A stretch of 64,000 nt of DNA from Microcoleus sp. AS-A8 (GTDB taxonomy: Bacteria; Cyanobacteriota; Cyanobacteriia; Cyanobacteriales; Coleofasciculaceae), in assembly GCA_039962225.1 (NCBI GenBank), contig JAMPKV010000001.1, forward strand, positions 310,001 through 374,000. The letters run 5' to 3'. Position numbers and translations under genes: made by a program. The notes beneath the pieces were generated by a model that worked only from the letters and a program-made list of their open reading frames with translations, made no database searches and was not told the DNA's origin. This document shows positions 41,521 through 64,000 of the stretch, in pieces (position 1 is the stretch's first letter; every line of letters begins with the position of its first letter).

Positions 41521-42250
41521 TTGTTCTGCCTCAAAAATTGATATTTCAACGATGGAAAGCGTTCGACGAGTTAAACAGCTACAATACGTAACGCCTTGTA
41601 GAGAGCAACTAGGGTCTTGTGGCAGATGCGAACGAAATTCTTTGAAGACTCATCCTATTAGAAGAGTGAATGCTCTAGTGACTCGGTAGTGCATGGGTCG
41701 AGCTAAAAATTGGCTGATAGATATAGGCTGTAGGAGTCTTGAGTACTGAGTAACATCCACCGATCGCTCTAGGGAATTGTTCAGAAAAAAGATTGGTTGT
41801 CTCTTTACCCATCAAGTCGGCGACTTAAAACCCTGCCAGAGATATCCCTGCTGCGTTCCTGACTCAATACTCAGGACTTTCATCGTAGAATTCCCAGTCG
41901 GTAGGATGAACTTGGATTCATTATGCTACCTTTTACAGGGACGGCAACTAATTTCGGGAGAATTAATCAAAAGCTTTTTATTCTCCTCAAAGCATTATGT
42001 AATTTTCATAAAACTTAGGCTCTTCAGGAACAATTGGCAGCGATCGCACATCTAAATGTTTCTCTTCACATCCTCTGCGGATGGGTTGGCGATCGCTTCC
42101 TGAGCCATGTGACTTTTAATCTAACCCTTCAGCCCACGCTGAAGCCGAACTTAACGTTTATATAACAATCTGTAACAATTAATATAGCCTAGCGCCACGG
42201 GTGCCTGCGGCTGTAAAGCCTTTAAGCCATTGTCAAATCATACAAGCCCG
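41521..42250. other. 730-base gap, mostly featureless
   Basis: No credible gene. A perfect hairpin CTTCAGC-CCAC-GCTGAAG at 42127-42144 resembles the palindromes at 12648-12758. The right side is AT-rich (ATATAACAATCTGTAACAAT) and may be the promoter of the truncated aldo/keto reductase. Confidence 0.35.
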
Positions 42251-42535
42251 ATGAACCTATCCGCATCAAGCCGACTTCAATTCACCCCAGATTTGAATAT
42301 CTGTAGTGTCTTAAACGGCATGTGGCAAGTATCGGGTGCACACGGACGCATTGACTCACAGCGCGCTATCGAGAGTATGTTCCAGTATATGGATGCAGGC
42401 TTTACGACTTGGGACTTAGCCGACCATTATGGCCCAGCAGAAGACTTTATTGGAGAATTTCGGCGTCAACTTATCAATACTCGTGGGAAAGAGCGACTCA
42501 AGTTATCGATAGATGCTTTTGATAGCTTAGAATAG
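42251..42535 (+). pseudogene. truncated aldo/keto reductase
   Basis: The ~94-residue frame is the start of an aldo/keto reductase: ICSVLNGMWQVSGAHGRID, then FTTWDLADHYGPAEDFIGEF with the Asp of the catalytic tetrad and the expected Tyr. Family members are ~300-340 residues. After GKERLKLSI the homology ends and a stop follows, so the Lys and His residues and most of the barrel are missing. The break is ~200 bases left of the transposon end, consistent with disruption and decay at the insertion site, but not proof of it. It is not expected to be active. Confidence 0.8.
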
Positions 42536-42734
42536 TTATTTATTTATCGATTACAAGGAAATTTAATACAATAGAAATTATCTATTAATTGCCTCCTTTT
42601 TCTATTCTGTTTCATCTTTATTTTTACCTTTAAATTTATATTTAATTTACTACTTGATAGCTAATGCTGTCACCTCAGAACTCCTTAGCCGCTAATAAAA
42701 ATACTAAGCTGCCTCACCAAGCAATCAAGGTTTT

Positions 42735-42925
42735 TGTCACTACAACCATAAGTTGAGCAAAACTACAACCATAAGTTGAGCATAAGAGCCGCTGTAATAG
42801 GCATTCTCTTGTTCAGGAGAATATATCCCGATCTCCATTTAACAACCATAAGTTGAGCAAAAAGAGAAATCCTAGGCATAAGTTGGCACAAAATCGCAAA
42901 CCGTATCCCCGACAAAAACCATAGG
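42735..42925 (+). promoter_or_regulatory. transposon left end with TnsB-type binding sites
   Basis: The 18-base core ACAACCATAAGTTGAGCA occurs exactly at 42742-42759, 42765-42782 and 42842-42859 (the first two within 21-base copies starting ACT). Degenerate copies are at 42873-42890 (GCATAAGTTGGCACA) and 42914-42925 (AAACCATAGGT). Same-orientation repeats, the outermost two 23 bases apart, are the arrangement of TnsB sites in Tn7-like left ends. They lie between a truncated gene and tnsAB. Confidence 0.82.
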
Positions 42926-43214
42926 TATTAGACCAACTCTCACCTCAGTCCGACCAGCGACTGAGGAGCTACCCTGCTCATCTTCAAGTGAGCATAGCTA
43001 TCTTCATTTGTAAAGGAAATTGTAATACTTCTCAATAAAAAGCCTTTTAAGTAGAGGAAACTTATTTTAAATTATGGAAGTTTTTGCCTATATTCAAGGA
43101 ATCACTCAACCTATTAATTGACCACCTGTGTAGCACTCGTAAAATTCTCATCAGTTTCAAACCCAGCTAGGTGAGGAACAAACCGTTAGTTCAGGAGTAA
43201 GAGGAGACTGGTGG

Positions 43215-46010
43215 ATGCTCACTGAAGATGAGTTCAAAAACTGGTGTCGCCGCCTTAATATGACGGAACTAGCGAGGAAGAGCATAGAAATAATTCGCTC
43301 ATCCGAACCATCGCGGCTTGTTGGCGGGGGTAGAAAGAACGTTTCAGGACGCTATCCCAGCCGCAAGATGAGGAGAACGATTCAGTTCGAGTCACACCGT
43401 AACGAGCTAGCGCATATCTATAAACTAGAGCATGACCAAGATGTGCTGGAGTACTACGACCAGCCTCCCCCCATTGAACTTATTTACCTGAGTAAGTCAG
43501 GACGACGCATTCGCCAGTTACACACGCCGGACTTTTTCGTCATTCGGAAAAACACCGCAGGCTGGGAAGAGTGCAAGACACAAGAGGAGTTACTCAAAAA
43601 AGCACAGGAGAGTCCGAACCGTTACCAGCTCACAGAGCCTGGTAAGTGGCAATGCCCTCCAGGTGAAGAGTACGCACACGCATTGGGTTTGTACTACTGT
43701 TTTCGCTCATCTGCTGAAATTGATTGGATATTCCAGAGAAACTTTGTTTGGCTGGAGGATTACTTTCAAGCCAAGTTGCCACAAGTAGATGAGGAGGTGT
43801 CTCGTGCCGTCCTTTCAGTTGTAGAAGCCGAGCCGGGAATTGTCCTAACCGACTTACTCAATCGTGTTGAGCAAGCTAAGGTCGATGACCTCAATATCCT
43901 GATTGCTACTGATCGAGTGTACGTTGACCTCAGTGCAGTTCCCTTGAGGCAGCCGGAGCAGGTGCAAGTTTTTCTCGACCAAGAAGAAGCTTTCACTTAT
44001 GCTCAAGTGACCAAGATTGCTCCCCCAACGTCTGTAAGCCAAATTTGCGCCGTTAAAGTTAGTGCCGGAACACCAATATCCTGGGATGGTGCAAACTGGC
44101 AGATTGTTAATACGGGGAACACCTCGATTGGACTATTGAAAGACAATGACGATTTTATCCAACTACCCAATAAGGTGTTCGAGGATTTAGTTGAGAAAGG
44201 ACAAATCACGGGGCTTCTAGCCCAAACCGAATCAAGCCTTAATGCTGAAGTTGAGGAAATACTCCGCAAAGCCAGTAAGAGAGACCGGGAAGAAGCCAAT
44301 CGTCGCTACAAAACGATTGAACCCTTCCTCAATCGCAACTCATCCACCAAACCTAATAGCTCCGAACGTCGTTGGATTGCGAGCTACCGAGAAGCCGAAA
44401 AGATTTACCAGCGAGGCTTCATCGGACTCCTACCGAACCATCAACAGAAGGGAAATTACCAGCCAAAAATCAGTGAAGAAGTCCGAACCCTGATGGAGGC
44501 GTTTATTGAGGACAAGTATGAAACCCTCAAGCAGCAGTCAATCAGCCGAATTTACTGGTCTTTTAAAGAAGAATGCATCCAACAAGGAATTAAGCACCCA
44601 AGCTACGAATTGTTTCGTAAAACCGTTCACGGGCGTCCTGCTTATCAGAAAACTCTAAAGCGCCAGGGACATCGAGCCGCTTATCAAGAGGAACTGTTCT
44701 ACTGGCGCTTGGACAGAGAAAAAACACCTCCCCACGGTGAACGTCCGTTTGAAATCTGCCACATCGACCACACCGAAGCCGATGTTGAGTTAGTCAGCTC
44801 AATTATGGCGACTCTTGGCGGTGACTTAGAGTTCTTGTGTGATGGTAACGGCAATAAAGCGCGTCCCTGGTTAACCTTATTGATGGACGCTTACTCAAGG
44901 CGAATACTTGCTGCTTACTTGACTTTCGATCCACCCAGCTACCGCTCCTGCATGATGGTTTTGAGAATTTGCGTCCAACGCTTTGGTCGCCTTCCCCAAA
45001 TCATCGTGGTAGATAATGGTGCAGAATTTAACAGCAGCGACTTTGAAACCCTCCTCGCTTACTACCGATGCACTAAGAAACAAAGACCATCAGCTAAGGG
45101 ACGTTTTGGTTCAGTCATTGAACGCTTCTTTGGGGTTGCCAACCAGGAGTTTTGGCACAATCTAAAGGGCAACACCCAGATTATGCGAAATGTTCGGCAG
45201 GTAACCAAAGGCGTCAATCCGAAAAATCAGGCAGTCTGGACGCTGGGCAAGGTATACGAATACCTGTGTGAATATGTTTATGAAGTGTATGAAGCCTCAC
45301 CTCATCCTGCCTTAAGGCAGAGTCCTAGAGATGCCTTCAAGGCTGGCCTAGCCAGAGGAGGTAGTCGAGACCATTTGCTCATTTCTCCAGACGAGTTTCG
45401 GCTACTATCGCTCCCCTCACCAACAGACCGAGAAGGCAAAAGAAAAGTTACGCGGCAAGGGGTAAAAATTAACCACCTCTACTACTGGCACAAATCCTTC
45501 AGTGGGATAAAGGTTCGGGATACAGATGTAGAAGTGAAATATGAGCCATTCGATATCACTGTGGCTTATGCCTACGTCAATAAAGAGTGGGTGAAATGTT
45601 CTTCAGGTTACCTCCAAGAACTCCAAGGTCACTCAGTACGAGAGTTGATGATTGCTACCGCTGAACTAAAAAAGCTTAACGAGATTCAAAATCGGCAATT
45701 TACTGAAATCACAGGCAAAAAACTTGCTCAGTTCTTTGCCTCTGTAGAAAAGGAAGAGGTTGCTTTATCGCCACCTTCACGAGAGGCGAAAAAAGCTGTG
45801 CTAGCGCAGCGCAAGCGGGATTTGGAAGTCAAGCCGGTACATGCACTGATTGACGGTGATTATGTGGAACAAGATACTGATTCTTCTGTAGACCATCTTG
45901 AAGAGTCTAAAAGCTATGAAAGTGAAAGTTTACCCCTGTCCACAGAGTCTATTCCGCTGGATGATGAGGATGATGATTTTGAAAATTTTCAACCTCTAGA
46001 GGAATGGTGA
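43215..46010 (+). CDS. tnsAB: TnsA-TnsB fusion transposase
   Basis: The 931-residue protein fuses two Tn7 functions. Residues ~40-190 are a TnsA-like endonuclease with catalytic Glu64 (HRNEL), Asp106 (HTPDFFV) and Glu119-x-Lys121 (EECKT). Residues ~500-690 are a TnsB/Mu-type DDE integrase with Asp518 (HIDHTEAD), Asp600 (VVDNGAEF) and Glu636 (SVIERFFG), spacing D-35-E. Between them is a TnsB helix-turn-helix region, and an acidic tail ends the protein. With both nucleases intact, cut-and-paste rather than cointegrate transposition is expected. TnsAB fusions are known in cyanobacterial Tn7-like and type I-B CAST elements, not in type V-K. GAGGAG lies nine bases before the ATG. Confidence 0.9.
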   Translation: MLTEDEFKNWCRRLNMTELARKSIEIIRSSEPSRLVGGGRKNVSGRYPSRKMRRTIQFESHRNELAHIYKLEHDQDVLEYYDQPPPIELIYLSKSGRRIRQLHTPDFFVIRKNTAGWEECKTQEELLKKAQESPNRYQLTEPGKWQCPPGEEYAHALGLYYCFRSSAEIDWIFQRNFVWLEDYFQAKLPQVDEEVSRAVLSVVEAEPGIVLTDLLNRVEQAKVDDLNILIATDRVYVDLSAVPLRQPEQVQVFLDQEEAFTYAQVTKIAPPTSVSQICAVKVSAGTPISWDGANWQIVNTGNTSIGLLKDNDDFIQLPNKVFEDLVEKGQITGLLAQTESSLNAEVEEILRKASKRDREEANRRYKTIEPFLNRNSSTKPNSSERRWIASYREAEKIYQRGFIGLLPNHQQKGNYQPKISEEVRTLMEAFIEDKYETLKQQSISRIYWSFKEECIQQGIKHPSYELFRKTVHGRPAYQKTLKRQGHRAAYQEELFYWRLDREKTPPHGERPFEICHIDHTEADVELVSSIMATLGGDLEFLCDGNGNKARPWLTLLMDAYSRRILAAYLTFDPPSYRSCMMVLRICVQRFGRLPQIIVVDNGAEFNSSDFETLLAYYRCTKKQRPSAKGRFGSVIERFFGVANQEFWHNLKGNTQIMRNVRQVTKGVNPKNQAVWTLGKVYEYLCEYVYEVYEASPHPALRQSPRDAFKAGLARGGSRDHLLISPDEFRLLSLPSPTDREGKRKVTRQGVKINHLYYWHKSFSGIKVRDTDVEVKYEPFDITVAYAYVNKEWVKCSSGYLQELQGHSVRELMIATAELKKLNEIQNRQFTEITGKKLAQFFASVEKEEVALSPPSREAKKAVLAQRKRDLEVKPVHALIDGDYVEQDTDSSVDHLEESKSYESESLPLSTESIPLDDEDDDFENFQPLEEW

Positions 46011-47200
46011 TGGCAACTAAGCAGGGATTCCCACCAGAATTACTCACTCAATCAACACAAAAGCGCTTAGATTACTTCAAGGCTCCCGGTAAAACCGTAA
46101 GGCACCGGAATCTGGAATTAGTGTATAACCAAGTTTTGCGTGCCATTCGAGAACCAGCAGGAGCTTCGATAATTCTAGTCATGGGGCCATCCGGTGTAGG
46201 AAAAACCACATTACTGCGCTTGGTCGAGAAAAATATTCTTGAGGAAAGCTTGCCACAGATGGAACTCGACCCCGGTTGGATTCCGATTGTCTGTGTTGAG
46301 GCAGTTGCACCAGGTAAGGATACTTTCAGGTGGAAAGACTTCTATAAACGTACCCTGATTGCTATCGATGAACCACTGATTCAGGAGAAAATTAGCTATA
46401 CCGAAGACGGTATCCGCCGTGATAGCGAAGGGAAACTTATTGTTAAGTCAAGGGCAACTGAAGATAGCTTGCGTTTAGCGATGGAGCAAGCGTTGTCTCA
46501 CCGTAGACCCTACACTCTAGCGGTAGATGAATTTCAGGATATTGGTAAGATGGCTAGCCAAAAGGTTTTGGAAGCTCACATGGACTCTATTAAGTCAGCC
46601 GTGAATACGACCAAAATTCCCTGGACTGGGTTTGGGACTTATCAACTTCTGGACTTCCTCGAACTGAGTCCCCAATTAAGCCGACGTACTCGGATTATTC
46701 ACTTGCCTCGCTACCGCCTAGAGGACGAGAAGGATATTGAGGCGTTTAAAGAAGCTCTAAAACATTTGCTGTATCGGATGCCATTACCAGAAACACCCCG
46801 CCTAGTGAACAAATACTGGGAGTACTGCTACGAACGTAGCATTGGCTGTATTGGTACACTTAAAGATTGGCTGGTACAAGCACTTGACCTCGCTCTTGAA
46901 GAAAAAGCAACGACTCTCACCCTTAATCATCTCGAAAAAACAGCAAAGTTAACCTCTGAGTGCATACAAATGGCAAAAGATGCGATCGAGGGTGAAGAAA
47001 GGCTGACTGATAGTAAAGAGAGCCAACGCCAATTGCGTGAACTTCTCAACCCAAAGAAACAAAAAGTTCAGGAAGCTCAAACTAACTCAGGTAAAGACGA
47101 TAAGCAAGAGAACAACGGTAGCAAGTCAAAGGGTTCGAGCAGACGACGAGTGGGTCAACGCAATCCCAAGCGAGACCCAGTAGCAAGTGAATCATTATGA
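46010..47200 (+). CDS. tnsC: TnsC-type AAA+ transposition regulator
   Basis: The ~396-residue ATPase has Walker A VMGPSGVGKTTL near residues 57-68, Walker B LAVDEFQDIG near 170, and a TWFG/TGFGTYQLL sensor region near 205. It should form filaments on target DNA and hand target information from TniQ (or Cascade) to TnsAB. The last ~75 residues are a charged, Lys/Gln-rich tail. The start is the ATG that overlaps the tnsAB stop as TGATG, with AGAGGA six bases upstream; the ATG six bases earlier lies on the ribosome-binding site. The end overlaps tniQ by four bases (ATGA). Confidence 0.88.
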   Translation: MATKQGFPPELLTQSTQKRLDYFKAPGKTVRHRNLELVYNQVLRAIREPAGASIILVMGPSGVGKTTLLRLVEKNILEESLPQMELDPGWIPIVCVEAVAPGKDTFRWKDFYKRTLIAIDEPLIQEKISYTEDGIRRDSEGKLIVKSRATEDSLRLAMEQALSHRRPYTLAVDEFQDIGKMASQKVLEAHMDSIKSAVNTTKIPWTGFGTYQLLDFLELSPQLSRRTRIIHLPRYRLEDEKDIEAFKEALKHLLYRMPLPETPRLVNKYWEYCYERSIGCIGTLKDWLVQALDLALEEKATTLTLNHLEKTAKLTSECIQMAKDAIEGEERLTDSKESQRQLRELLNPKKQKVQEAQTNSGKDDKQENNGSKSKGSSRRRVGQRNPKRDPVASESL

Positions 47201-48216
47201 GTGTTGATGAATCCACTTCGGTGGAGATGTGGGATTTGCAAAAACCCGCTATTCCACCGCGTAGCCGTCTTTATCACTTAGAACCTATTGGAGTGGGGAC
47301 ACCCTATACAGAAAGCTTAAGCAGTTATCTCTGTCGATTAGCTCAGGAGCATTGTGTTACCTCTGGGAAACTGATTGTAGGAGAAATTGCTCCACAGATG
47401 ATGGGTGAAGGATATAAGGTTACTTTCATTAAAAAGAATGTTAGTACCATTTTCAGTAACAGTGATGCCAAGCCAGCCATTAATGGGATGAGGGAAAAGA
47501 CGCAATCTCTTATCCAAGCTTTAAAAGAGCTAACTCAGCGTAAAGACTTAGTGTTTTTAAGCCTTTTAACTTGGAAAGGAGTAATTAATGAGCGAGAATT
47601 ATTTCGTCAATATCGAGCCTGGTGTCCTCAGTGTAATGAGCAATGGCGACAAGAGAAGAAGGTGATTTATGAACCTTTACTGTGGTCTTTTCGACAGGTT
47701 GATGCTTGTCTGAATCACAACTGTCTCTTAGTTAATGAATGTCCCTACTGTAGTTCCCGCTTACCTGTGATTGCTAATTCCTTACAACTAGGGTTTTGTT
47801 CTCGTTGTAAGCGTTGGCTGGGAAGCCAAAAAGACGAGAGTCAAGTATTAACAGCTGATGAACTGGCGTGGAATCAGTACAAGATAAAGAGTATTGGGGA
47901 TTTGATTGCAGTTGCTCCTAAATTAGAGTATCAGCCTACTCTTGACGCTTTGAATAAAAAGTTCCAGCTTATTTTATTTTGTTTTGAAAGAGCCGTTAAT
48001 CAAGATTTGACTCAGTTTATTAGCTTGGGCAAGATTATGGAGCAACTGAAGATAGCCTTAACTCAACATTATGATAAGCCTTTTCATCTGAGCAACTTAG
48101 TTATTCCAGTTTGTTATCAAACTGATATATCTATCACTCAATTATTTTTAGAAGAATTTAATTTATTAAGTGAAATTTTACTGAGGAATTTTAAGATAAA
48201 TTACAGGCTTACTTAA
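47197..48216 (+). CDS. tniQ: TniQ/TnsD-family target selector
   Basis: The 339-residue protein opens with the TniQ signature YTESLSSYLCRLAQEH near residue 35 and has zinc-finger pairs WCPQCNEQW, CLNHNCLLVNECPYCSSRLP and GFCSRCKRWLG (about 140-215). The length lies between short V-K TniQ (~170) and long TnsD (>450). It may be the TniQ that joins Cascade, or a TnsD that recognises a fixed attachment site; type I-B CASTs usually have both. The C-terminal ~125 residues are helical without known motifs. The four-base overlap with tnsC shows translational coupling. Confidence 0.85.
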   Translation: MSVDESTSVEMWDLQKPAIPPRSRLYHLEPIGVGTPYTESLSSYLCRLAQEHCVTSGKLIVGEIAPQMMGEGYKVTFIKKNVSTIFSNSDAKPAINGMREKTQSLIQALKELTQRKDLVFLSLLTWKGVINERELFRQYRAWCPQCNEQWRQEKKVIYEPLLWSFRQVDACLNHNCLLVNECPYCSSRLPVIANSLQLGFCSRCKRWLGSQKDESQVLTADELAWNQYKIKSIGDLIAVAPKLEYQPTLDALNKKFQLILFCFERAVNQDLTQFISLGKIMEQLKIALTQHYDKPFHLSNLVIPVCYQTDISITQLFLEEFNLLSEILLRNFKINYRLT

Positions 48217-48253: not shown

Positions 48254-50092
48254 TCAATAATTCGTCACTATCCCCCCATGTAGGCTACTGCCGTTACCGT
48301 TTTTATACTCCGCCACGGATGGCTCAAACGGTTCAAGGATTAAATTCTTGCCCATTGCCTTGCCAACTAACTCCATTAAGGCTTTTGTCCGTGCCGCGAA
48401 AAATCCCTCAAAGTCGTCTTGGCGCAGAAACTCTGGCTCAATAGTGTGCGATCGCAACATCTCATCCAGTTTCTCTGGCGAGGTTCCCGACATCTCAAAC
48501 TCCTTGAGATAAACCGAAGGCGCTTTGGAGCCGATTTTTTTATTCGTTTTCGCGCTTAAGGGGGTGCGATTGACCAAGCAGTTGTATTTTTTCGGGTCAA
48601 TGTCATGCTTTCGACACCACGAAACTGGGAAGATGTGGTGCGATTCTACCCTTTGTTCAAAATAAAGTACGTCATTAATTTCTTCCCCCGTACTCCAATC
48701 CACTGCCCCAGATAGGCGCAATAGCGCTGACAAGCCTTGGTAGACCGCACCATAGCGTTTTCTGGCATTTAGGAGCCGCTCTACCGAGAATCTGGCAGAA
48801 GTCACCGTCGTTGGCATGGCACCGCTGAATAACCAAAGGGGTATCTCCACTAAGTCACAGGCGGCTCGCACCTCCCCGCGTAGATACAGCTCTCCAAACA
48901 TCCCACACGATAACCAACGCGCTAATTGAGAACGAACTCGTTCGCTATCCGATCGCTTTCCCAGTACAGTTAAAATTGCCGCCATTGCCACTAATTGGAT
49001 GGGGTATGCCAAATGGTTAGCGTCAAAGATTTTCTGGGCGTGCAGGAATCGGGCGGCTTCCTCAAACCCTCTGGTGATGGGGTCTGCCCAAGTCTGGTAT
49101 TCTTCGGTTGAGAGTTTCAAAACTTCTGAGCGCCGACAGCTAACACCGGGTAATTTCTCGGAAACTATGCCTGCACGAAAGGCATCTTGGCGACGGGCAT
49201 AAGAAGCTGCTAAGGTGACGGCTTGAAGAAAATCTGTATTCCTTAAAGAACGCAAGGCTTTAAAAGACATCAGGTGAACCTCTCGGCGCTTCCAATCGTC
49301 ACGCAGACTGAAGTTGTCAGCACAGTAACTAGCCGTCATCAGGTCGAAAAAATTGAGGTCGCACCCGGAGGTGTTGGTATCTTCAAAGACCTGGCAAACG
49401 GCGTCTTTTGGCAAGGAGTCTCGCAATTGGATGACCGGCATCTGATAATGCTCGAATTTTTTGAGGATTTCCAGCTCTAAGGTATCCAGGAGTTTGAGTT
49501 TTTCGCTATCGTATCCCCAAAATTTAGAGTATTTGCTTCTCCATTCCGAAAAAAAGAAGACCTTTGATAGGGGGAACAGTCCGATTAAATATTCTTGGCA
49601 TGGTGTAGAAAAATCAATTACCCCATGAGCTGTTCGCAGCTTTTTTGATTCAGGTAAGGCGAGAATTGCTTCTTTTCGGTCGGTATTGGGGTCGAGGGAT
49701 TTTTCAATGTCCAGGTAGTACCACTTGCGGCTGAGTTTGTTGCTGTTGGAGTCTTTAACCAGGACGGGTTGCTCGGATAGCAGCACCATGAACAGGGTGG
49801 TTAAACGCTGTTGCCCGTCGAGAATTAATAAGTTGGGTGCAGGGGATTGCTGTAGCGTCGCGCCATTGAGCAGGCGAGGCTTGAACCGCACTTGAGGATT
49901 ACCTTGTTGGAGTAGCATGACCGCACCAACGGGGTAAGCCAGGGATAGGCTCGTCAGCAGCCTTTTGACGCGAGCATCATCCCAAACCCAATCCCGCTGG
50001 AAATCCGGCAGTTGGATGCGTCCGATTTTGATGTCTTTGAGGATATCCAGCAGAGGATATTTGGTGATGTCGAAGGTGCTAATCGAGTTCAT
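48254..50092 (-). CDS. DUF262/HNH-type protein (GmrSD-like)
   Basis: The 612-residue protein has an N-terminal DUF262 domain (IQLPDFQRDWVWDDARVKRLL, then ILDGQQRLTTLF near residue 90), the ParB-like nucleotide-binding/hydrolysis fold of GmrS. The C-terminal part has an HNH/DUF1524-like VESHHIFPVSWC near 475 and NRTPLSAKTNKKIGSKAPS. This is the fused architecture of GmrSD-type modification-dependent restriction systems that cleave modified phage DNA. It is the first cargo gene inside the transposon, converging on tniQ. Key motifs look intact. Defence function is inferred from family and setting. Confidence 0.85.
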   Translation of the reverse strand: MNSISTFDITKYPLLDILKDIKIGRIQLPDFQRDWVWDDARVKRLLTSLSLAYPVGAVMLLQQGNPQVRFKPRLLNGATLQQSPAPNLLILDGQQRLTTLFMVLLSEQPVLVKDSNSNKLSRKWYYLDIEKSLDPNTDRKEAILALPESKKLRTAHGVIDFSTPCQEYLIGLFPLSKVFFFSEWRSKYSKFWGYDSEKLKLLDTLELEILKKFEHYQMPVIQLRDSLPKDAVCQVFEDTNTSGCDLNFFDLMTASYCADNFSLRDDWKRREVHLMSFKALRSLRNTDFLQAVTLAASYARRQDAFRAGIVSEKLPGVSCRRSEVLKLSTEEYQTWADPITRGFEEAARFLHAQKIFDANHLAYPIQLVAMAAILTVLGKRSDSERVRSQLARWLSCGMFGELYLRGEVRAACDLVEIPLWLFSGAMPTTVTSARFSVERLLNARKRYGAVYQGLSALLRLSGAVDWSTGEEINDVLYFEQRVESHHIFPVSWCRKHDIDPKKYNCLVNRTPLSAKTNKKIGSKAPSVYLKEFEMSGTSPEKLDEMLRSHTIEPEFLRQDDFEGFFAARTKALMELVGKAMGKNLILEPFEPSVAEYKNGNGSSLHGGIVTNY

Positions 50093-51578: not shown

Positions 51579-52064
51579 ATGTTAGACCAACTTATAAAGT
51601 ATTTCGTGTACGCGACAAGAGGACATATCACTAAAACCCAACTCGTCAAATTCTTGTATTTAGCCGATCTTTACTCTGTCAAATGGACAGGAAAGCAGCT
51701 TACTAAACTAGACTGGTATTACTATCTGCATGGACCTTGGCATGAAGATATAGATGCGGCTCTAGCTAAAATGAACGGTAAGGAAATTCTCCAAGACTCA
51801 GAGGGGGACGCTGTGCTGATTAGACTTGGTCCAGAAGCAGCTAATGCCGAGGAACTTGAATTACCTGCAAGTCTCAAGTTAATACTTGAGAACATTAGGA
51901 GAGAGTGGGCAGGTGCAGGTCAGGATAGAATTAAGCAATTACTTGACTATGTTTATAGCACTGCTCCGATGCTGGAGGTTAAGGAGGCACATAAGCCAGA
52001 AGAGAAAGTGCCCCTTAACCTAGAAAAGGAGAGAGAGAGATTAATTCAGGAATTAGACCAATAA
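51579..52064 (+). CDS. Panacea-domain (DUF4065) antitoxin
   Basis: The 161-residue protein carries the Panacea/SocA domain: KTQLVKFLYLADLYSVKWTG, WYYYLHGPWHEDIDAAL. Panacea proteins are exchangeable antitoxins that neutralise many toxin folds in adjacent genes. The last ~30 residues form a Glu/Lys-rich helix that could be the toxin-neutralising part. The toxin-like gene starts six bases downstream on the same strand, the standard antitoxin-first layout. Autoregulation from the 51335-51364 palindrome is possible. Confidence 0.85.
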   Translation: MLDQLIKYFVYATRGHITKTQLVKFLYLADLYSVKWTGKQLTKLDWYYYLHGPWHEDIDAALAKMNGKEILQDSEGDAVLIRLGPEAANAEELELPASLKLILENIRREWAGAGQDRIKQLLDYVYSTAPMLEVKEAHKPEEKVPLNLEKERERLIQELDQ

Positions 52065-52070
52065 AGCAAA

Positions 52071-52679
52071 GTGTCTGGACAGAAACCCCCCCGACAAGGT
52101 TGGATCTACTATATAAATCCTCACAGGGTAGTTCTTAGATGTAAGTTGAGTCATACTTACATCTACGACTTACCCGAACCAGGTGAAGTTGAATGTCAAC
52201 ATCACTCTTGCCAACTGAAGATTAACTCTAGCCGAGTTTTCCGGGGAGGTCATCCCCACATCGTTTGGACAAGTAAGCAATTTCAAGATGGCTCTAACTA
52301 TATAGATACATTTACACTTATTCCATTGACTTCAAGTGAACGAAATAAAGGTCTACCAACAACATGGCCTATTAAAGCCACCAGTAAAAATGGTCTTGAT
52401 GAAGATTCTTTTGCCCTAGTTCACCAGATATGCACAGTTGATGCTAACTCTTTCAAAGACTCAAATGGAGATTGGTTAATCCGGATTGGTCAACTAGAAA
52501 AACCAGATAGGGGAGCTATAGAAGAGCGTTTAAAGTTTTTTTTGGGAATACATGAAACTCCTAATGAAGACTGGTTTGTTCAAAATGCAACTCCAGAACT
52601 TTTGAAGAAAGTGTACTTTAATCTATCAGAGGATGACCAAAACAGAGTATTAGAGGAATTAATAGATGATATGCATTAA
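52071..52679 (+). CDS. PemK/MazF-like toxin of the Panacea pair
   Basis: The 202-residue protein follows the PemK/MazF beta-barrel order: PRQGWIYYINPHRV (G-I-Y start), HIVWTSKQFQ, IDTFTLIPLTSSER (the P-L-T/S strand), then a GLDEDSFALVHQICTVDANSF segment that matches the 'S-v-q-q-v-tid' strand. It is about twice the usual MazF length, with a cysteine/histidine-bearing insert (CKLSH, CQHHSC) near residues 22-50. It should be a ribonuclease if active. It uses a GTG start, immediately after the Panacea gene. The toxin call rests on pattern and position; no catalytic Arg/Thr can be named with certainty. Confidence 0.72.
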   Translation: MSGQKPPRQGWIYYINPHRVVLRCKLSHTYIYDLPEPGEVECQHHSCQLKINSSRVFRGGHPHIVWTSKQFQDGSNYIDTFTLIPLTSSERNKGLPTTWPIKATSKNGLDEDSFALVHQICTVDANSFKDSNGDWLIRIGQLEKPDRGAIEERLKFFLGIHETPNEDWFVQNATPELLKKVYFNLSEDDQNRVLEELIDDMH

Positions 52680-52961: not shown

Positions 52962-54131
52962 TTAGCCAATGATTTTTAAAACTTCCGGTGCGAGAAAAAC
53001 TTTATTGTAGGAGGCTTCTCCTGCTTGTACTAAAATACCCGCGTTAACGAGTTTCTCGACGTTTTGTTGTGCAGATCGATAGCTGACATCCAGGATAGCC
53101 TGAGCGTTGGGAATGGTGAGTACGGGTGACTCAAACAAACTATCTGCCAGACGTGGCACTAGAGCCGAAGCACGGGCTTGTGTTAACAGTTGCCGCCACT
53201 CTAGTTGTAAATCTTGTAACCGTTTCGCTCGAACAACAGCATCTCTGGACTGTTCTGTTACACCGCGTAAAAAGAATAATAGCCAGTCACGCCACGCTCC
53301 ACGTTGACTCACACCAAGCAATAGCTCATAGTAGTCTTGCCGATGGCGCTCAAAAAACGCACTTAGATAGAGCAAGGGTAGTGGCAGCAAGTTCCAACTC
53401 AATAGCAGAAGCGAGATGAGTAGTCGCCCGATACGTCCGTTACCGTCCAGAAAGGGATGGATAGTTTCAAATTGGTAGTGAATCAGACCAATGCGGATAA
53501 GCGGTGGGTAGGCACAATCGCTGTTGAGGTATGATTCTAACTCATCAAGACATCCCAACATTTCTGGCACTGGAGGAGGAATAAAGCGGGCATCATTCAT
53601 GCTTCTCCCGTGTGAACCAATCCAGTTTTGAAGGCGACGGAACTCTCCGGGAGTAGCTGTCTCACCACGCACGCCGTCTACTAACCGTTCATGGAGTTCA
53701 CACATCAGACGTTTGCATACAGGCAGAGTATTGAGTCGCTCTAAGCCGTATTCCAGTGTACGCACGTAATTGAGTACTTCTTTCACATCAGATTCTGGTG
53801 GGGGAGGAACAATACCAGGAAGCGTTAGCTGTCCAGTCTCATAGGCATAGAGATTGGCAATATCTGCCTGTGTACCTTCGATGCGCGAGGAGAGAACTGC
53901 CTCACGACGAATGAATGGACGGATGAGAAGATTAGGATTAGGCATGGTGCGCCCTAATCCTGCAAGTTCTCCCAGAGCGCGATCAGCCTCAGATAGCGTA
54001 CACACAATTTCTGTATCAAGTTGCAGCGCTGGTGCTAGGGGTTTGGGTACAAACGCAAAGCAGGGATTTTCATTCTGTCCAATTGGTACCAACTCCCCTG
54101 TAGGGCTATTTTGAAAGTGTTCTGGGTTCAT
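52962..54131 (-). CDS. Fic-family protein (class II inhibitory motif)
   Basis: The 389-residue protein has the Fic active site TIHPFLDGNGRIGRLLISL near residue 200, complete with His, Asp/Asn and both Arg. The N-terminal part has SSRIEGTQAD near 83-92, an (S/T)xxxE(G/N) helix that blocks the active site in class II Fic proteins. A C-terminal winged-helix region (SYRSAQQNVEKLVNAGIL) may bind DNA. It should transfer AMP from ATP to protein hydroxyls under self-inhibition. I start at MNPEHFQN; the 38 residues upstream in frame are encoded by repeat-like DNA and are unlikely. Confidence 0.88.
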   Translation of the reverse strand: MNPEHFQNSPTGELVPIGQNENPCFAFVPKPLAPALQLDTEIVCTLSEADRALGELAGLGRTMPNPNLLIRPFIRREAVLSSRIEGTQADIANLYAYETGQLTLPGIVPPPPESDVKEVLNYVRTLEYGLERLNTLPVCKRLMCELHERLVDGVRGETATPGEFRRLQNWIGSHGRSMNDARFIPPPVPEMLGCLDELESYLNSDCAYPPLIRIGLIHYQFETIHPFLDGNGRIGRLLISLLLLSWNLLPLPLLYLSAFFERHRQDYYELLLGVSQRGAWRDWLLFFLRGVTEQSRDAVVRAKRLQDLQLEWRQLLTQARASALVPRLADSLFESPVLTIPNAQAILDVSYRSAQQNVEKLVNAGILVQAGEASYNKVFLAPEVLKIIG

Positions 54132-54632
54132 CCTGATTTTTGTATCAGAGCGTAGATAGCACAGCGATAATCGATCGCTTCTCTTTCCATCTTGCCAAGC
54201 ATGATTGCATGTCTTTATCCTGCCAAATGCGCTCACATCCAGCAACTACAGCAGGTTAATGCTTGGGAAGCTTTGCTGGAGAAGTTGAAAGGGATTGACA
54301 GTAAATGAGCAATTTACCTAGCGGCGATAGCTCCGCTTCACGCATCCCTTCATCTAGCAAGTGCTTGTACTTTCAAACCTTATTATTTGTTAGATTACTT
54401 AAAACTTTTAAAAATAAGCTTTTTATTTATTTTTATAATAAAAATTGAACATTTTATTATAAAATGTTACAATAAAATGTTATTGATATAGAGATAAGGG
54501 GTTATGCAGAGAGTAATATATCTTATTTTAGTACATTAGTATCTATATCCTATTATTTTTGTTGTGTAAACAATCAAAAAAATAAGTTAGGGAGGGTAAT
54601 CTACTATATATTCTTAACGGAGGAATCTTCCA
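54132..54632. other. 501-base AT-rich gap with operator-like palindromes
   Basis: AACATTTTA-TTA-TAAAATGTT at 54448-54468 is a perfect 9-bp inverted repeat, and a third half-site TAAAATGTT follows at 54473-54481. They lie ~150 bases upstream of the gene pair at 54633. The left side holds degraded HIP1-type repeat (54166-54240). No coding frame is credible. Confidence 0.55.
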
Positions 54633-55607: not shown

Positions 55608-56780
55608 TCACAGTTCTCCCTTCAAGGCTTTGTCAAGGATAGAAGGTAGCAGGGCATCTACTTTTTCAATTGCGTCTGCTCTCAAAGTGTGCATCTCATT
55701 CACTTTGGCTTGGAGATTGTCAAGAAAAGCAGCAATCCTGTGCTGTTCTGGGATAGGTGGTACAAATGTCACATGTTTTTTTAGCAGTTCTTTCCTTACC
55801 CCAGTTTGTCCTGACGTTCGTTGTGAATCATCTACGACTTTTTTGTGTAAAATTGGTTCTTGCAGAAGATAAAAAAGAAAGTTTTTGGACAACTTACGTT
55901 CGTCTGGAACTGCTTTCATTAAAGCAACATTATATGCACCTTCAATACCTCGAAGAATTTGAAACACTGGAGGACCATATCTACCAATCATTACATCTTC
56001 TGCATTACAAAATCTTCTCACTGAATTTTTATGGACATAAGTTATATAATCATCCGATTTATAATCTCTAATTTGAATTAATCTTACATAATCGGGAATT
56101 TCTTCATAAGAGAAATTCATTTTGGGGGGTTGTGAACCACCCTGAAAATCACATATTTCGCCTAATCTGATTTGAAATTTTCCTTGACTTGCTGCTGCTT
56201 TAAATATGTGTCCAATATTTTGTACAAGGAGTGTGGCTGCTTCTTCCTCCGCTCGCTTGCGTAGTCTTCGCGCCTCCTCAATCTTTCCCGCCACTTCCTC
56301 AACCTGCGCTACAATCCTTAGCTGCTCCTCTAAAGGAGGTAGTGGGATTTCCTGCTTGGCAAACTGGGCTATGTTTAGAGTGCGATTACGTCCCGCAGAA
56401 CCAGGTGATACTCTCCTGAGAACCTCTAACCCTGACTGAGAACGGAAGAACAGCCGTAGGTACTCAACACTGCATTGATTTCCAATAGGAGTGTAGGTTA
56501 CAAAGCGGTGTGAACCTATCATTCCTGCTTCTGCTTCACTGGCAACTGCAACAGCTCCTTCCCAGGCAAACACATTGTTAAACACAATATCGCCTGGTTG
56601 AATCTGCAAGACGCGCTTATTTCCTAATGAAGCTCCTACAACCGGAGTTTTGTGAAATATTCCCTTACCAAACGAACGAATACCAATTTCGGCATACGTT
56701 TCAGTTGGGTCTAACTTCAACCAACGTCGTTGAAGCTGAAGTATTTTGTCTAATCGCACCAGTGACCAATGTTTACTCAT
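55608..56780 (-). CDS. hsdS: type I restriction-modification specificity subunit
   Basis: The 390-residue HsdS has two target-recognition halves, each ending in a conserved helix: QFAKQEIPLPPLEEQLRIVAQ near residue 155 and LLKKHVTFVPPIPEQHRIAAF near 345. Each TRD reads half of a bipartite DNA site. The N-terminal TRD starts WSLVRLDKILQL. Length is normal. The ATG overlaps the hsdM end by eight bases. Both TRDs look intact, so the enzyme should have its own specificity; the site cannot be read from sequence. Confidence 0.9.
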   Translation of the reverse strand: MSKHWSLVRLDKILQLQRRWLKLDPTETYAEIGIRSFGKGIFHKTPVVGASLGNKRVLQIQPGDIVFNNVFAWEGAVAVASEAEAGMIGSHRFVTYTPIGNQCSVEYLRLFFRSQSGLEVLRRVSPGSAGRNRTLNIAQFAKQEIPLPPLEEQLRIVAQVEEVAGKIEEARRLRKRAEEEAATLLVQNIGHIFKAAASQGKFQIRLGEICDFQGGSQPPKMNFSYEEIPDYVRLIQIRDYKSDDYITYVHKNSVRRFCNAEDVMIGRYGPPVFQILRGIEGAYNVALMKAVPDERKLSKNFLFYLLQEPILHKKVVDDSQRTSGQTGVRKELLKKHVTFVPPIPEQHRIAAFLDNLQAKVNEMHTLRADAIEKVDALLPSILDKALKGEL

Positions 56781-58593
56781 TCCCCTTGCCTGCTAAAACT
56801 TGCTGAATCTCTGCCATGATTTCAGCCACCCGCCTATCCTTCTCCAAAATATCGGCTAATAACTGCTCAGGCGGTAAATGCTCAAAATCCTCCTGGCGAT
56901 TCGGGTTTTTGCGGTCAAGATTGTAAATCGCCCAGTAAATTGCATCCCCCTTCGCTTGCTCATCCTTAGCAATTTCGCGCTGACGTTGCTCCTCGGAACG
57001 AGCCTGTGTTATCTCATCCTTCAGCCCCTCAATCTGACTTTTAATTCGCTTAATTTCTTCTTTCGGTGAAAAGTCCAGAATCAAATTCTGCAAACTCTGA
57101 ATTTTCTCCTCTAACTCCTTAGCACTCTTAGCACATTGATTCGCCATTTCCTCGGCTTCCTTCGCCGCATCCCTATGGGGAGTTGCTTCAGCTATTGCCT
57201 TGTCATACGCCTCTCTAAAGTTATACTTCCAGGCTTGTTCATTCTCCTCTCGGTTTTTCCACCAAGCTAAACAATCAGCAAACTCTTCATACTGCAACGG
57301 TTTAGTCTTCGTGTAAGTCTTCCGTCCTTCTGGCAGAGGTAACTCGTAGTACCAAATCTCCTCAGTTCTGCCAGAACGGTCAAAAAATAACAGATTGGTC
57401 GGAATACTGGTATAAGGAGCAAACACCCCATTCGGCAAGCGCACAATCGTATGCAGGTTAAACTCTTTGAGTAATTCTTCCTTAATTCGACCGCAGATAC
57501 CATCACCGAATAAAACCCCATTGGGGAAAACTATACCTGCTCTCCCTGGTTTCGGTTTTTGTTTCAGCAACCGCATAATCAACTGGAGAAATAGCAGCGC
57601 TGTCTCGTTTGTGCGTTTATCCGGTGGAAAATTCTTTTGAATCTTGCCTTCCTCTTCCCCACCAAAGGGAGGATTCGTGAGGATAATATCGACCTGGTTT
57701 TTTATCCCCAACTCCGTGAGCGAATGGCGCAGACTGTTCTTATCATCAATATCGGGGTATTCAAACCCATGCAAGAGCAAATTCATCTGCGCCAGCATAT
57801 AGGGTAGAGACTTCGCCTCACCCCCGGCAATCGTCGCTTGAACAATCTCCAAATCTTGGGGAAGCTTACATTGCTGTTTCAGATACTCGTAAGCTTCCAC
57901 CAAAAAGCCACCCGTACCGCAAGCGGGGTCAAAAATACTTTCCCCGATTTGAGGTTCCATCACCTCAACCATAAACCGGACAACGGAACGGGGTGTATAA
58001 AACTCGCCTGAATCTCCTGCTGCGTCCCGCATCTCCTTGAGCATGGACTCGTAGAAGGTGCTGAGGATATTCACCTCTTCTGAATCATTGAAGTGAATAT
58101 CGTTAACCAGATTGATTACCTCCCGCAGCAGCGCACCGCTATCCATGCGGTTATTAACGCCTTTGAAAACTTTAGCAATTACATCCTCGCGACCCTTACC
58201 CGTAATGCTCTGAAGACTCCGCAAATAAGCAAAAAGCCCTTTGCAGCGAGTGCCATCCGGCAACGTTACCTCATCATTATTGATGAAGCTCTTCAACTGG
58301 TCGCCGCTCATTCCCTCATCATTTGCCGCCCAATCTCGCCAGCGATAGGGATATTCAATCGCAGGTTTAAAGGGTTCCGTCCGTTCTAAATCTAAACTTG
58401 CCTCTTCCTCCCGCAACTGCTCGGAATCATCCAACAGTTTTAAAAACAAAATCCAAGTCAACTGCGGCAAGCGGTCGAGTTCTCCATTGAGTCCCTTATC
58501 CTTCCGCATGATGTCCCGCGCTGACTTAATCTTGCTTCCAAGCTTCTGTGCGGTCGTTACAGGTTTATCTTGCTTTTTGGTTTGTTTCGCCAT
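56773..58593 (-). CDS. hsdM: type I restriction-modification DNA methyltransferase subunit
   Basis: The ~606-residue HsdM is an N6-adenine methyltransferase. Motif I DPACGTGGFLVEAYEYL is near residue 220 and motif IV DIILTNPPFGGEEE near 300. A helical N-terminal domain (GLNGELDRLPQLTWILFLKL) and a long coiled-coil C terminus (residues ~480-550) give the usual HsdS contacts. Position suggests the start is ATG (MAKQTKKQ) rather than the TTG one codon upstream, with AGGCGG as ribosome-binding site. It lies between hsdR and hsdS and should form M2S1 and R2M2S1 complexes. Confidence 0.92.
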   Translation of the reverse strand: MAKQTKKQDKPVTTAQKLGSKIKSARDIMRKDKGLNGELDRLPQLTWILFLKLLDDSEQLREEEASLDLERTEPFKPAIEYPYRWRDWAANDEGMSGDQLKSFINNDEVTLPDGTRCKGLFAYLRSLQSITGKGREDVIAKVFKGVNNRMDSGALLREVINLVNDIHFNDSEEVNILSTFYESMLKEMRDAAGDSGEFYTPRSVVRFMVEVMEPQIGESIFDPACGTGGFLVEAYEYLKQQCKLPQDLEIVQATIAGGEAKSLPYMLAQMNLLLHGFEYPDIDDKNSLRHSLTELGIKNQVDIILTNPPFGGEEEGKIQKNFPPDKRTNETALLFLQLIMRLLKQKPKPGRAGIVFPNGVLFGDGICGRIKEELLKEFNLHTIVRLPNGVFAPYTSIPTNLLFFDRSGRTEEIWYYELPLPEGRKTYTKTKPLQYEEFADCLAWWKNREENEQAWKYNFREAYDKAIAEATPHRDAAKEAEEMANQCAKSAKELEEKIQSLQNLILDFSPKEEIKRIKSQIEGLKDEITQARSEEQRQREIAKDEQAKGDAIYWAIYNLDRKNPNRQEDFEHLPPEQLLADILEKDRRVAEIMAEIQQVLAGKGNE

Positions 58594-58601
58594 CAATCCG
58601 C

Positions 58602-60992
58602 CTATGCCGTGTACAACAAAATTTGCAGTTGCTTCACTGCTTCCCTCAGTTGGTCAGTGCCTCCAAAGTGCTGGGCAATCTTAGACACATTGCCATATTT
58701 TCCAAACTCTTTGTTAACTTTGAAAGCCCCTGGAATTTTCAACTGCCCGATGCCATCCTCTGCATACTTGTCCAATAGCGTTTCCAAAATCTCTCTGGCT
58801 TCAGCCCCATACTGCTCAAAAAAGTCCGGTTTCTGACGGCGCAACTGTTCCGCCCGTTGTCGGCAAGTCAGCACAGGCGCACCAAAGGCGATATGACACA
58901 ACAAGTCAAAGGGGTCTGCATCCGGTTGGTTAGTCGCTGCTTTCAACTCATCAAAATCAATATTCCGCTCCGCTAACCTATCAATAATTTCATTCCGTTG
59001 CGTCGGGTCAGCCCACCTTTGCTGTATTTCTAGGGTAGAACGGTAAAGCGTGCGAACCTGCTCTTTAGTATGGTCAATCAACCGAGAAGGGACGAGGCGA
59101 TTCGTATTGGCATCGAGTTCATAGACGACTTCCCCAACAATCTCATCATGTCCCGTATCCACAAAAAGTTTCCTAGGTAGCTCATCCTCATCTTCTGGGA
59201 TACCCCTAAAACCGGAAGGTTCCTCTCCCTCCTCATCTTCTTCGTCAAGCGGTTCTGCCTCGCTACCGTTCTCAGGTACGTCAAAAATCTGCGCTTGGTC
59301 GTCTATTTCCTCATTCTCAATTTCGTCCGGTTCATCATCAAATTCTGGGTCATCAAACAGAACCGTGCTTTTCGTATAGTCAAGGATAGTAAAGGATGTC
59401 TTGCCGTACTCCTCACAAACACGGGTGCCGCGTCCGATAATCTGCTTGAAATCCGTCATTGACCGAATCACACGAGCTAGAACAATATTCTTGCAAGTCG
59501 GTACGTCTACTCCCGTTGTCAGCAGCTTCGAGGTAACAGCAATGACGTGCGTCTGCTTCTGCTTGTCCATAAACTCAAACAGATGTGCCTTACCAACCTT
59601 GCCTGCATCAGATGTGATGCGACACACGTAGTTAGGATTATCCTTAGTGATGTCATTGTTGAGGTTGTTCAACGCCTTCCGCATTTCCTTAACGTGGTCT
59701 TCATCGACACAGAAGACTATTGTCTTAGCAAAGCGGTCAGTTTTCTTGAGAAAATCGGTAATGTGACGAGCGATCGCCCAAGTCCGCACTTTTCGGACAA
59801 GTCTCCGCTCAAAATCCCCTGTGAGAAAATACTCATTCGGAATCTCGCGCCCATAGCGTTCCACATCCTCCGCACTCGGACGCCAACCATCCCTATCCGA
59901 TTTCGTGCTAATCCGATGCACCCGATAGGGCGCTAAGAAACCATCCTCAATTCCCTGCTTTAGCGAGTAGATGTAAAGCGGGTTGCCAAAGTATTTATAG
60001 GTATCAACATTATCATCCCGCAACGGTGTCGCCGTTAGCCCTAGCTGGTAAGCAGGCTGGAAATACTCCAGAATTTCCCGCCAGTTGCTCTCCTCGCGTG
60101 AGCTTCCTCGGTGACATTCATCCACGATAATCAGGTCAAAAAAACCCGGACTGTATTCTTTGTAGAGTCCGGGGCGGTTTTTGTCTTTTGCGATCGCCTG
60201 ATAAATCGCAAAGTAAATCTCGCGACTCTTGTTAGCTGTCCCTTGAATCTTATGGATTTTATCCTCACTAAAGGCGTTAAAGTCCTTGAGAATCGGGTCA
60301 TCCACCAACACATTCCTATCTGCCAAAAACAGAATTCTGGGAGGACGAACTTCTCCGGTTCGATTCCAACCCATATTCGACAGCTTCCAGCAGATTTGAA
60401 ACGCCACGCTGGTTTTCCCAGTCCCCGTCGCCATCGTCAGCAGCAGGCGCTTGTCACCTTTAAGAATTCCCTCGACTGCCCGATTAATCGCAATCCGCTG
60501 GTAGTAGCGAGGGACTCGTTGATTGGTCAAACTAAAGGGAGTCAGCAGTTTCCCAGCTACATCATCACCCAATTCCTCAGAGTCTTTCAATCGCTGCCAA
60601 AGGTCACCGGGACTGGGAAATGAATCCATCACCTCAGACTGCAATCCCGTAGTGAAGTCGTACTCTACAATGCCCGTACCGTTAGTAGAATAGGCAAACT
60701 TGACCCCCAGAATCTGGGCATAGTCCTTAGCCTGTTCCAGTCCCTCGTCAGGTGATTTTCTTGCACGCTTTGCTTCCACTACAGCAAGCGGAAAATCGCG
60801 GGTGTAGCAAAGGAGATAATCAGCATACTTTCTTTCACCACGAGGTTTGCGCCTATTTTTAGGTCGGATGCGTCCGTCCGTGAAATAATACTGCTCTGTG
60901 TAAAAAGGCGGTGAATCTGCTCTCCTTCCCCAGCCTGCCGTTTCTAGTTTCGGCTCAACATACTCGCGGCAAGTATTCGCTTCATTGCTCAT
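58602..60992 (-). CDS. hsdR: type I restriction enzyme translocase/nuclease subunit
   Basis: The 796-residue HsdR has an N-terminal nuclease domain (YADYLLCYTRDFPLAVVEAKR: D and ExK motif). Walker A MATGTGKTSVAFQI is near residue 185 and a DECH box (IVDECHRGSSREE) near 295; helicase motif VI is near 520 (QIIGRGTRV). The size and DECH box fit the EcoEI-like group, shorter than EcoKI HsdR. An acidic linker (residues ~560-640) separates the helicase from the C-terminal HsdM-binding helices. It is the first gene of the operon R-M-S, eight bases before hsdM. Confidence 0.92.
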   Translation of the reverse strand: MSNEANTCREYVEPKLETAGWGRRADSPPFYTEQYYFTDGRIRPKNRRKPRGERKYADYLLCYTRDFPLAVVEAKRARKSPDEGLEQAKDYAQILGVKFAYSTNGTGIVEYDFTTGLQSEVMDSFPSPGDLWQRLKDSEELGDDVAGKLLTPFSLTNQRVPRYYQRIAINRAVEGILKGDKRLLLTMATGTGKTSVAFQICWKLSNMGWNRTGEVRPPRILFLADRNVLVDDPILKDFNAFSEDKIHKIQGTANKSREIYFAIYQAIAKDKNRPGLYKEYSPGFFDLIIVDECHRGSSREESNWREILEYFQPAYQLGLTATPLRDDNVDTYKYFGNPLYIYSLKQGIEDGFLAPYRVHRISTKSDRDGWRPSAEDVERYGREIPNEYFLTGDFERRLVRKVRTWAIARHITDFLKKTDRFAKTIVFCVDEDHVKEMRKALNNLNNDITKDNPNYVCRITSDAGKVGKAHLFEFMDKQKQTHVIAVTSKLLTTGVDVPTCKNIVLARVIRSMTDFKQIIGRGTRVCEEYGKTSFTILDYTKSTVLFDDPEFDDEPDEIENEEIDDQAQIFDVPENGSEAEPLDEEDEEGEEPSGFRGIPEDEDELPRKLFVDTGHDEIVGEVVYELDANTNRLVPSRLIDHTKEQVRTLYRSTLEIQQRWADPTQRNEIIDRLAERNIDFDELKAATNQPDADPFDLLCHIAFGAPVLTCRQRAEQLRRQKPDFFEQYGAEAREILETLLDKYAEDGIGQLKIPGAFKVNKEFGKYGNVSKIAQHFGGTDQLREAVKQLQILLYTA

Positions 60993-61646: not shown

Positions 61647-62153
61647 TTTCAGTTGTCAGGATGGAGGACGCGAACGGCAGTCAGCCCAACCAATATCAAT
61701 AAGGTTTCTGACGTTTTGCGATCGTAGCAAACGGCAGAAAACAATTGGAACACTCCCGACAAATATTTTGTCAAGACCACACTATTTTTACCATTGTCCA
61801 CCCAAACTTGGCTGAGCAACGCCTATAAACATAAAGCCACGAAGCACATATAGTGGGCATAACCCACGCGTAAAAATCGGCTCTGAGCAACGCCTATAGA
61901 CATAAAGCCACGAAGCACAGCCCTTCTCAAACGCCTAGTTAGCTAAGGGCTTACAGCCAATTTTACAAGCATCTCTCTGAGACGCTGCCTGAAGTTACAA
62001 ATATTCTTTAAGTTAGTGATTCTCTCAATAGCTCAAATCCATATTCCACAGTACTTTCAGAGAATTGCAAGCACCGTCAATCGTTCCTCAAACTCTGAAT
62101 CACTCACTCAATAAGCTTTACAGCCATTTTTCCTGATTCAATCTACTCATCAT
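61647..62153. other. 507-base gap downstream of cas5
   Basis: No credible gene. This is where a CRISPR array would be expected for the minus-strand cas operon. It holds the 37-nt direct repeat pair at 61812-61919, a hairpin GTGGG-CATAA-CCCAC at 61853-61867 inside the interval, and GCCCTT/AAGGGC arms at 61920-61950. Nothing else stands out. Confidence 0.5.
61812..61919. CRISPR. candidate two-repeat CRISPR-like array (uncertain)
   Basis: Positions 61812-61848 and 61883-61919 are 37-base copies with one mismatch (start CTGAGCAACGCCTATAAACA, end GCCACGAAGCACA). The interval is 34 bases, the right size for a type I spacer, and the site is ~240 bases downstream of cas5. Against it: only two copies, no GAAAC/GAAAG repeat end, and the 'spacer' is largely a GTGGG/CCCAC hairpin, as in dispersed cyanobacterial palindromes. 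Confidence 0.35.
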
Positions 62154-63743: not shown

Positions 63744-64000
63744 CTAGAATTGACTTTCTGGAGTTAACTCAGACTTTTGACTAAATTCTTCTGATGGTTT
63801 TTGGCTTGGTTTATAACTGGCTAAAGCAATCAATACTAAATTCCTAGCTTTTTCCCAAGAAATTTGCCCCGTCAAAAGGGGTAATATAGATTCCCACTGG
63901 TCGTATAATGCAGAATTAAGACCTGCTCTGGAGAGAAAATCAGACAGAAAATCGTTAAAGGATTGCTGGTCATAGCATCGCCCCAGTTCTCCTCTAATTC
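63744..64000 (-). CDS. cas8: C-terminal part of Cas8-like Cascade large subunit (partial)
   Basis: Only the last ~85 residues are in the window. They are helical (QQSFNDFLSDFLSRAGLNSA, then GQISWEKARNLVLIALASYK) and end with an acidic tail. Position just upstream of cas7-cas5 on the same strand fits the large subunit, Cas8a/Cmx8-like in type I-B/MYXAN sets, but no diagnostic motif lies in this fragment. Cas6 is the alternative. The gene runs beyond base 64000. Confidence 0.5.
   Translation of the reverse strand, partial: IRGELGRCYDQQSFNDFLSDFLSRAGLNSALYDQWESILPLLTGQISWEKARNLVLIALASYKPSQKPSEEFSQKSELTPESQF

Follow-up and report, generated by a model that had tools for sequence, protein, structure and literature searches.

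A Tn7-like element, very probably a type I-B2 CAST, beside the tRNA-Val(GAC) gene of Microcoleus sp. AS-A8

What do several copies of one short sequence, all in the same orientation and lying beside a truncated gene, mark in the genome of Microcoleus sp. AS-A8 (G000)? The window analysed here, a stretch of 64,000 nucleotides (positions 310,001 to 374,000 of contig JAMPKV010000001.1, C1 below), holds the 18-bp sequence ACAACCATAAGTTGAGCA in three exact plus-strand copies, at 42742-42759, 42765-42782 and 42842-42859. The initial annotation read these, together with two degenerate copies and a TGT outside the first, as TnsB-type sites forming the left end of a transposon. We consider it very probable that they are binding sites for TnsB and that the element whose left end they form is a type I-B2 CAST homed to a tRNA-Val(GAC) gene.

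Two inverted ends and a neighbouring tRNA gene

The pattern search confirmed the reported arrangement of sites. The window contains no further match to ACAACCATAAGTTGAGCA at up to three mismatches, and 100 dinucleotide shuffles of the window gave a mean of 0.05 matches (maximum 1), with three matches in none of them. The TGT stands at 42735-42737, and two degenerate plus-strand sites, placed by eye, lie at about 42872-42889 (core GGCATAAGTTGGCA) and about 42915-42932 (core AAAACCATAGGT); both cores are the same in a congener, G001. The left end as a whole, a 25-bp tip TGTCACTACAACCATAAGTTGAGCA with five TnsB-type sites, occupies 42735-42932 on the plus strand. Its boundary had been claimed to be precise to the base, and alignment with the left end found in G001 (88% identity over 361 columns) supports this, since the homology begins at most one base from the tip (42734) while the flanks outside it differ.

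Used as a probe, the left-end sequence led to its partner, as the annotation had anticipated. Exact ACAACCATAAGTTGAGCA occurs four times in the genome, namely as the three left-end copies and one inverted copy at C1:377613-377630, where the whole left tip (42735-42759) recurs exactly and inverted, at G000:C1:377613-377637, beyond the window. The right end consists of three sites, the inverted exact copy and two near copies (one and three mismatches) oriented opposite to it. From tip to tip the element measures 24,903 bp, of which the final 3.6 kb lie past the window edge, and the right tip (C1:377637) is 32 nt from the 3' end of a tRNA-Val(GAC) gene that a tRNA scan places on the minus strand at G000:C1:377670-377743.

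Two outcomes had been named as speaking against a transposon end, the lack of an inverted copy within about 100 kb and copies spread through the genome without tns genes. Neither was encountered: the inverted copy is 24.9 kb away, and six matches occur outside the element (one with two mismatches, five with three), against eight genome matches at up to three mismatches for a control in which the pattern was read backwards. Three of the six fall in two lone right ends adjoining tRNA genes.

The gene beside the left end is truncated, as annotated, but it was not broken by this insertion. This plus-strand aldo/keto reductase ORF (42230-42535, Pfam) lies outside the element and matches positions 3-57 of a 291-position profile; its homology extends no further than 42493, which leaves about 240 bp before the left end, and we rejected it as a victim of the insertion. 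The 509 bp at 42226-42734, which include this gene, have no match at the G001 locus, where the conserved flank ends at about 42225. In the 19 relatives with a match to the aldo/keto reductase piece, this match and the tRNA-Val match are on different contigs, most of these genomes being fragmented drafts. The annotation had also proposed comparison with an empty site, and none was found: among 56 relatives only G001 showed both a long left flank and the tRNA side, and there the site is occupied by a type V-K element. The tRNA tracts of seven further relatives were covered by tRNA scan only.

Gene content and class of the element

In agreement with a Tn7-like reading, tnsAB, tnsC, tniQ and tnsD all lie between the two ends. 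The tnsAB gene (43215-46010, plus strand; Pfam and structure-chain match) is a single 931-aa ORF in which a TnsA endonuclease is fused to a TnsB DDE transposase (TnsA-like N domain, rve, Mu-transpos_C). Residues 5-872 of the 931 match 9bw1 (chain 9bw1_M, E 1.7e-278), and D518, D600 and E636, with a D-E gap of 35 residues, presumably form the TnsB catalytic triad, an assignment from motifs. On the same strand follow tnsC (46004-47200; Pfam, motif), encoding an AAA+ ATPase of the TniB family with the Walker A motif GPSGVGKT, and tniQ (47197-48216), a short form of 339 aa that, among solved chains, comes closest to the TniQ of 8fcu (E 2.2e-105). Outside the window, tnsD (G000:C1:376102-377511, plus strand) adjoins the right end and encodes 469 aa, of which residues 20-466 match 8v32/9bw1 (E 4.7e-144). 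A TnsB-type DDE transposase with a TnsC-type AAA+ ATPase, and inverted ends that carry site arrays (five sites left, three right) and TGT tips, mark the element as Tn7-like.

Four cas genes lie on the minus strand. They are cas5 of the Cmx5/DevS type (62154-62801) and cas7 of the Cst2/DevR type (62798-63730), both found by profile match; cas8 (profile and structure-chain match), of which 63744-64000 falls in the window and which extends in full over G000:C1:373744-375342; and, outside the window, cas6 (G000:C1:375294-375944). The Cas8 is of the I-B/MYXAN type, with 8fcj as its best solved match (E 3.8e-143), and a Cas11 chain matches its residues 403-517. The closest solved chains for TnsAB, TnsD, TniQ and Cas8 (9bw1, 8v32, 8fcu and 8fcj) come from entries that we take to be those of PmcCAST. 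Within the 19 element ORFs covered by Pfam, no Cas3 or Cas1/2 was found; the remaining listed ORFs, which mostly overlap others, and shorter ORFs fall outside this set.

A repeat search identified a two-repeat CRISPR on the minus strand at 61812-61918, with 36-nt repeats that differ at one base and a single 35-nt spacer. At up to three mismatches, the repeat occurs in its own genome at this locus only, twice. Similar repeats, judged by eye, are present in all seven other examined islands that hold tnsAB and cas8, which supports reading this two-repeat locus as an array. The spacer matched only itself in its own genome, nothing among phages, and one plasmid sequence at chance level (E 4), and its exact 31-nt core had no match in viral contigs. 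Rfam returned no match for window positions 40000-64000.

The cargo, assigned by Pfam, comprises a GmrSD_N-domain protein (48254-50092, minus strand), SocA/Panacea-like and PemK-like genes (51579-52679, plus strand) that could possibly form a toxin-antitoxin pair, a Fic-domain protein (52962-54245, minus strand) and the type I restriction-modification genes hsdS, hsdM and hsdR (55608-60992, minus strand). Inside its ORF, the GmrSD_N-type gene shares 78% DNA identity with L059:5894-7561, which belongs to the cargo of the V-K element in G001.

A TnsA-TnsB fusion, a short TniQ with a longer TnsD, Cas5/7/8/6 with a CRISPR array, and an insertion next to a tRNA gene together place the element with the type I-B2 CASTs, a known class that it extends. 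According to the accessible text of PMC11406308 and PMC10293859, the type I-B2 element PmcCAST / Tn7744 likewise has a TnsA-TnsB fusion, a short TniQ, a longer tRNA-targeting TnsD and a type I-B Cas complex, and its published target plasmid carries a tRNA-Val gene (PMC10293859). The window copy differs from PmcCAST in having no target duplication, and its own cargo includes type I restriction, GmrSD_N and Fic genes. Type I-D CASTs (CyCAST, McCAST) are also alike, as far as the accessible accounts go, in their fused TnsA-TnsB, their TniQ and TnsD, their attachment to tRNA genes and their insertion 30-33 nt beyond the tRNA (for CyCAST, PMC10293859), but they have a Cas10d-type complex, whereas the Cas8 here is of the I-B/MYXAN type.

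The closest TnsAB in our sample of the order (64% identical) belongs to an element in G382 (L113:4662-16001), which also has TnsC, two TniQ/TnsD proteins and a GmrSD_N-like gene close by. It differs in lying at tRNA-Ala(GGC) and in showing no recognised cas gene in 16 kb, where ORFs of 100 aa or more were considered; its left end was not located. TnsAB ancestry alone is therefore insufficient to call a CAST, and the G382 element combines a related transposase with a different targeting module.

Could the repeats instead be the ends of an unrelated IS21-like insertion sequence? We regard this as very improbable. In its favour, on a Geobacteraceae-labelled MAG contig (L163:3760-3840) an end with the 21-bp pattern is close to a gene that has rve and Mu-transpos_C_2 domains and that we take for an IS21-type transposase; either this end code is common to element families or the contig is mis-binned. 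In the window element, however, only 480 bp lie between the left tip and the start of tnsAB, and 126 bp between the end of tnsD and the right tip, which itself is beside the tRNA gene; the 19 element ORFs covered by Pfam include no other transposase. The MAG end, read by eye, has one forward and two reverse sites.

The sequence itself shows the anatomy of the element, its ends, its distance from the tRNA, its gene families, the likely catalytic residues and the CRISPR repeats common to related islands, whereas its activity, the division of labour among its proteins and the target of its crRNA are inferred. The TnsB part of TnsAB would bind the sites of both ends, five on the left and three on the right, and join the 3' ends, and the TnsA part would cut the other strands, so that the element would move by cut and paste. 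TnsC would couple TnsAB to the target selector. TnsD would bind the tRNA gene and set the right end about 32 nt past its 3' end, leaving the tRNA intact. RNA-guided jumps to other DNA would be steered by TniQ together with the Cas5/7/8/6 complex, which would use the crRNA from the two-repeat array.

The missing target duplication

The initial annotation had suggested looking for a 5-bp target duplication outside both ends, the signature of a simple, unrearranged insertion. It is absent: the flanks read GTTTT on the left and GTCAG on the right, and only the first two of the five bases agree. We compared six elements with both ends placed, comprising the I-B2 elements of G000 (the window copy), G320, G295 and G091 and the V-K elements of G001 and of contig C4 of G000, with flanks read by eye from the printed sequence. 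An exact duplication is present in one of the six (the C4 V-K element), four of five bases match in G091, and none is found in the other four, although the rows for G295, whose left tip is degenerate, and for G320, whose left tip was placed by eye, are both weak. The C4 V-K element served as a positive control; it has AGTGA on both sides (its far tip, read by eye, differs by one base), which indicates that a duplication can be detected when present. As four of the six elements have none, its loss is not peculiar to the window copy. Left out of this count were G383, with only a chance-like shared 10-mer, G180, G358, G312 and a deleted G001 element whose ends are of two types.

A missing duplication implies that at least one flank was altered once the element had integrated; the likeliest cause is recombination between insertions that followed one another at a reused site. 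The island would then be a mosaic, in which left and right ends of different insertions of the same family at this site were later joined by recombination or deletion, and we think this the probable history. The mismatched flanks, with similar mismatches in G320 and G295, point to it, subject to the weakness of those two rows, and so does the deleted G001 element at tRNA-Val(CAC) (G001:C1:4218492-4227566). This derivative keeps the left end described here, has a right end that by eye is of a different type, and contains nothing that matches the tnsABC and cas part. It has lost internal DNA at least twice, and two of the deletion junctions show overlaps of 12 and 11 bp. Against a mosaic speak the exact agreement of the 25-bp tips and a full gene set such as a single element would have. 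It is possible, but in our judgement less likely, that there was one plain insertion and that point mutation, or some small local change in the left flank, removed its duplication. This would fit the four matching bases in G091, as slow decay would give, and the 509 bp beside the left end that are unmatched at the G001 locus do indicate that one flank changed; yet at the window element only two of five bases agree, right beside tips that show no difference at all. A large inversion between two islands was ruled out as the cause, both flanks of the site being syntenic in G001. Even as a mosaic, the island may still be mobile, given its identical tips.

Insertions and scars at tRNA genes in the genus and order

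In G001, which belongs to the same genus, both flanks of the site are syntenic (78-89% DNA identity), and between them lies an 18,260-bp type V-K CAST with Cas12k, TnsB, TnsC and TniQ, flanked by no target duplication. A 17-nt stretch by a CRISPR-like repeat in this element exactly matches the 3' part of tRNA-Val(GAC). Ahead of the protospacer stands GGTT, and the distance from this presumed PAM to the start of the right end is 62 bp; V-K insertions fall 60-66 bp from the PAM. The V-K element shares with the window element the same tRNA-Val(GAC) gene, syntenic flanks, Tn7-like genes and a GmrSD_N-type cargo gene, and differs in its Cas12k effector, its TnsB without TnsA and its short tRNA-matching spacer in place of TnsD; its right end lies 44 nt from the tRNA, against 32 in the window element. 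Targeting would thus rely on TnsD in the one and on a guide RNA in the other, so that two modes, a DNA-binding protein and a 17-nt guide RNA, would arrive at one tRNA gene and one chromosomal locus in two species of one genus.

Each half of this picture is already known: in the accessible text of PMC11406308, most att sites of V-K elements are tRNA genes, while I-B2 elements use a tRNA-targeting TnsD. The sharing of one locus is the added comparison. We found no report of an I-B2/V-K pair at one tRNA locus in the accessible text of the literature searched (including PMC10293859, PMC11406308 and PMC8649781), which does not prove that none has been published.

Seven other fetched islands hold tnsAB and cas8 (G320, G091, G295, G383, G180, G358 and G312). 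Three of them (G320, G091, G295) have an inverted partner end at tRNA-Val(GAC), with tnsD at most 3 kb from the tRNA; G383 has tRNA-Val(UAC) near its tnsD, and no tRNA was found within the fetched stretches of G180, G358 and G312. The islands at tRNA-Val(GAC) differ in their end sites, which read CATAAGTTGAGCA in the window element, AAAGTTTG..TTTTGCC in G320 and G295, and AAACTCTGGTTTTGCC in G091.

To find relics, we used the 21-bp tip, at up to two mismatches, to search 388 genomes from the order, which gave 12 matches in nine genomes. Half of these lie within 1.5 kb of a tRNA gene. One is the right end of the window element itself; the other five are lone right ends at a distance of 31-33 nt from tRNA-Val(CAC) in G000, G008, G057 and G079 and from tRNA-Leu(UAA) in G000; the lone end of G008 keeps a tnsD tail. 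The other six, with no tRNA within 1.5 kb, are the left ends of G000 and G001 and matches in G244, G125, G214 and G037. TnsAB is found at E up to 1e-100 in 61 of the 388 genomes; G008, G057 and G079 are not among them, a threshold that leaves room for weaker or other transposases, and G000 has one full TnsAB, that of the window.

The genome of the window element also has Cas12k matches on contigs C4, C10, C48 and C27. V-K CASTs lie on G000:C4:90001-130000 near tRNA-Pro(CGG) and on G000:C10:1-14000 near tRNA-Val(UAC), and in each a 17-nt stretch by a CRISPR-like repeat matches its tRNA. All three tRNA-Val genes met in G000 (GAC, CAC and UAC, in a tRNA list that is not exhaustive) have a Tn7-like insertion or scar.

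It is conceivable, if rather doubtful, that protein-homing I-B2 and RNA-homing V-K CASTs contest the tRNA-Val genes of this genus as landing pads and displace each other there, with lone right ends at the exact homing distance, mismatched duplications and hybrid islands as scars of this turnover, and that lone right ends keep tRNA sites closed by target immunity. With natural matched ends, att sites and occupants at hand, one can ask whether one CAST type shuts out the other and whether an end left behind prevents renewed insertion.

Around the two lone right ends of G000, no tns gene was recognised by eye among the listed ORFs. Both ends carry a GTTGTCC variant of the site, one at G000:C1:144170-144349, 33 nt downstream of tRNA-Val(CAC), and the other at G000:C5:176513-176699, 32 nt downstream of tRNA-Leu(UAA).
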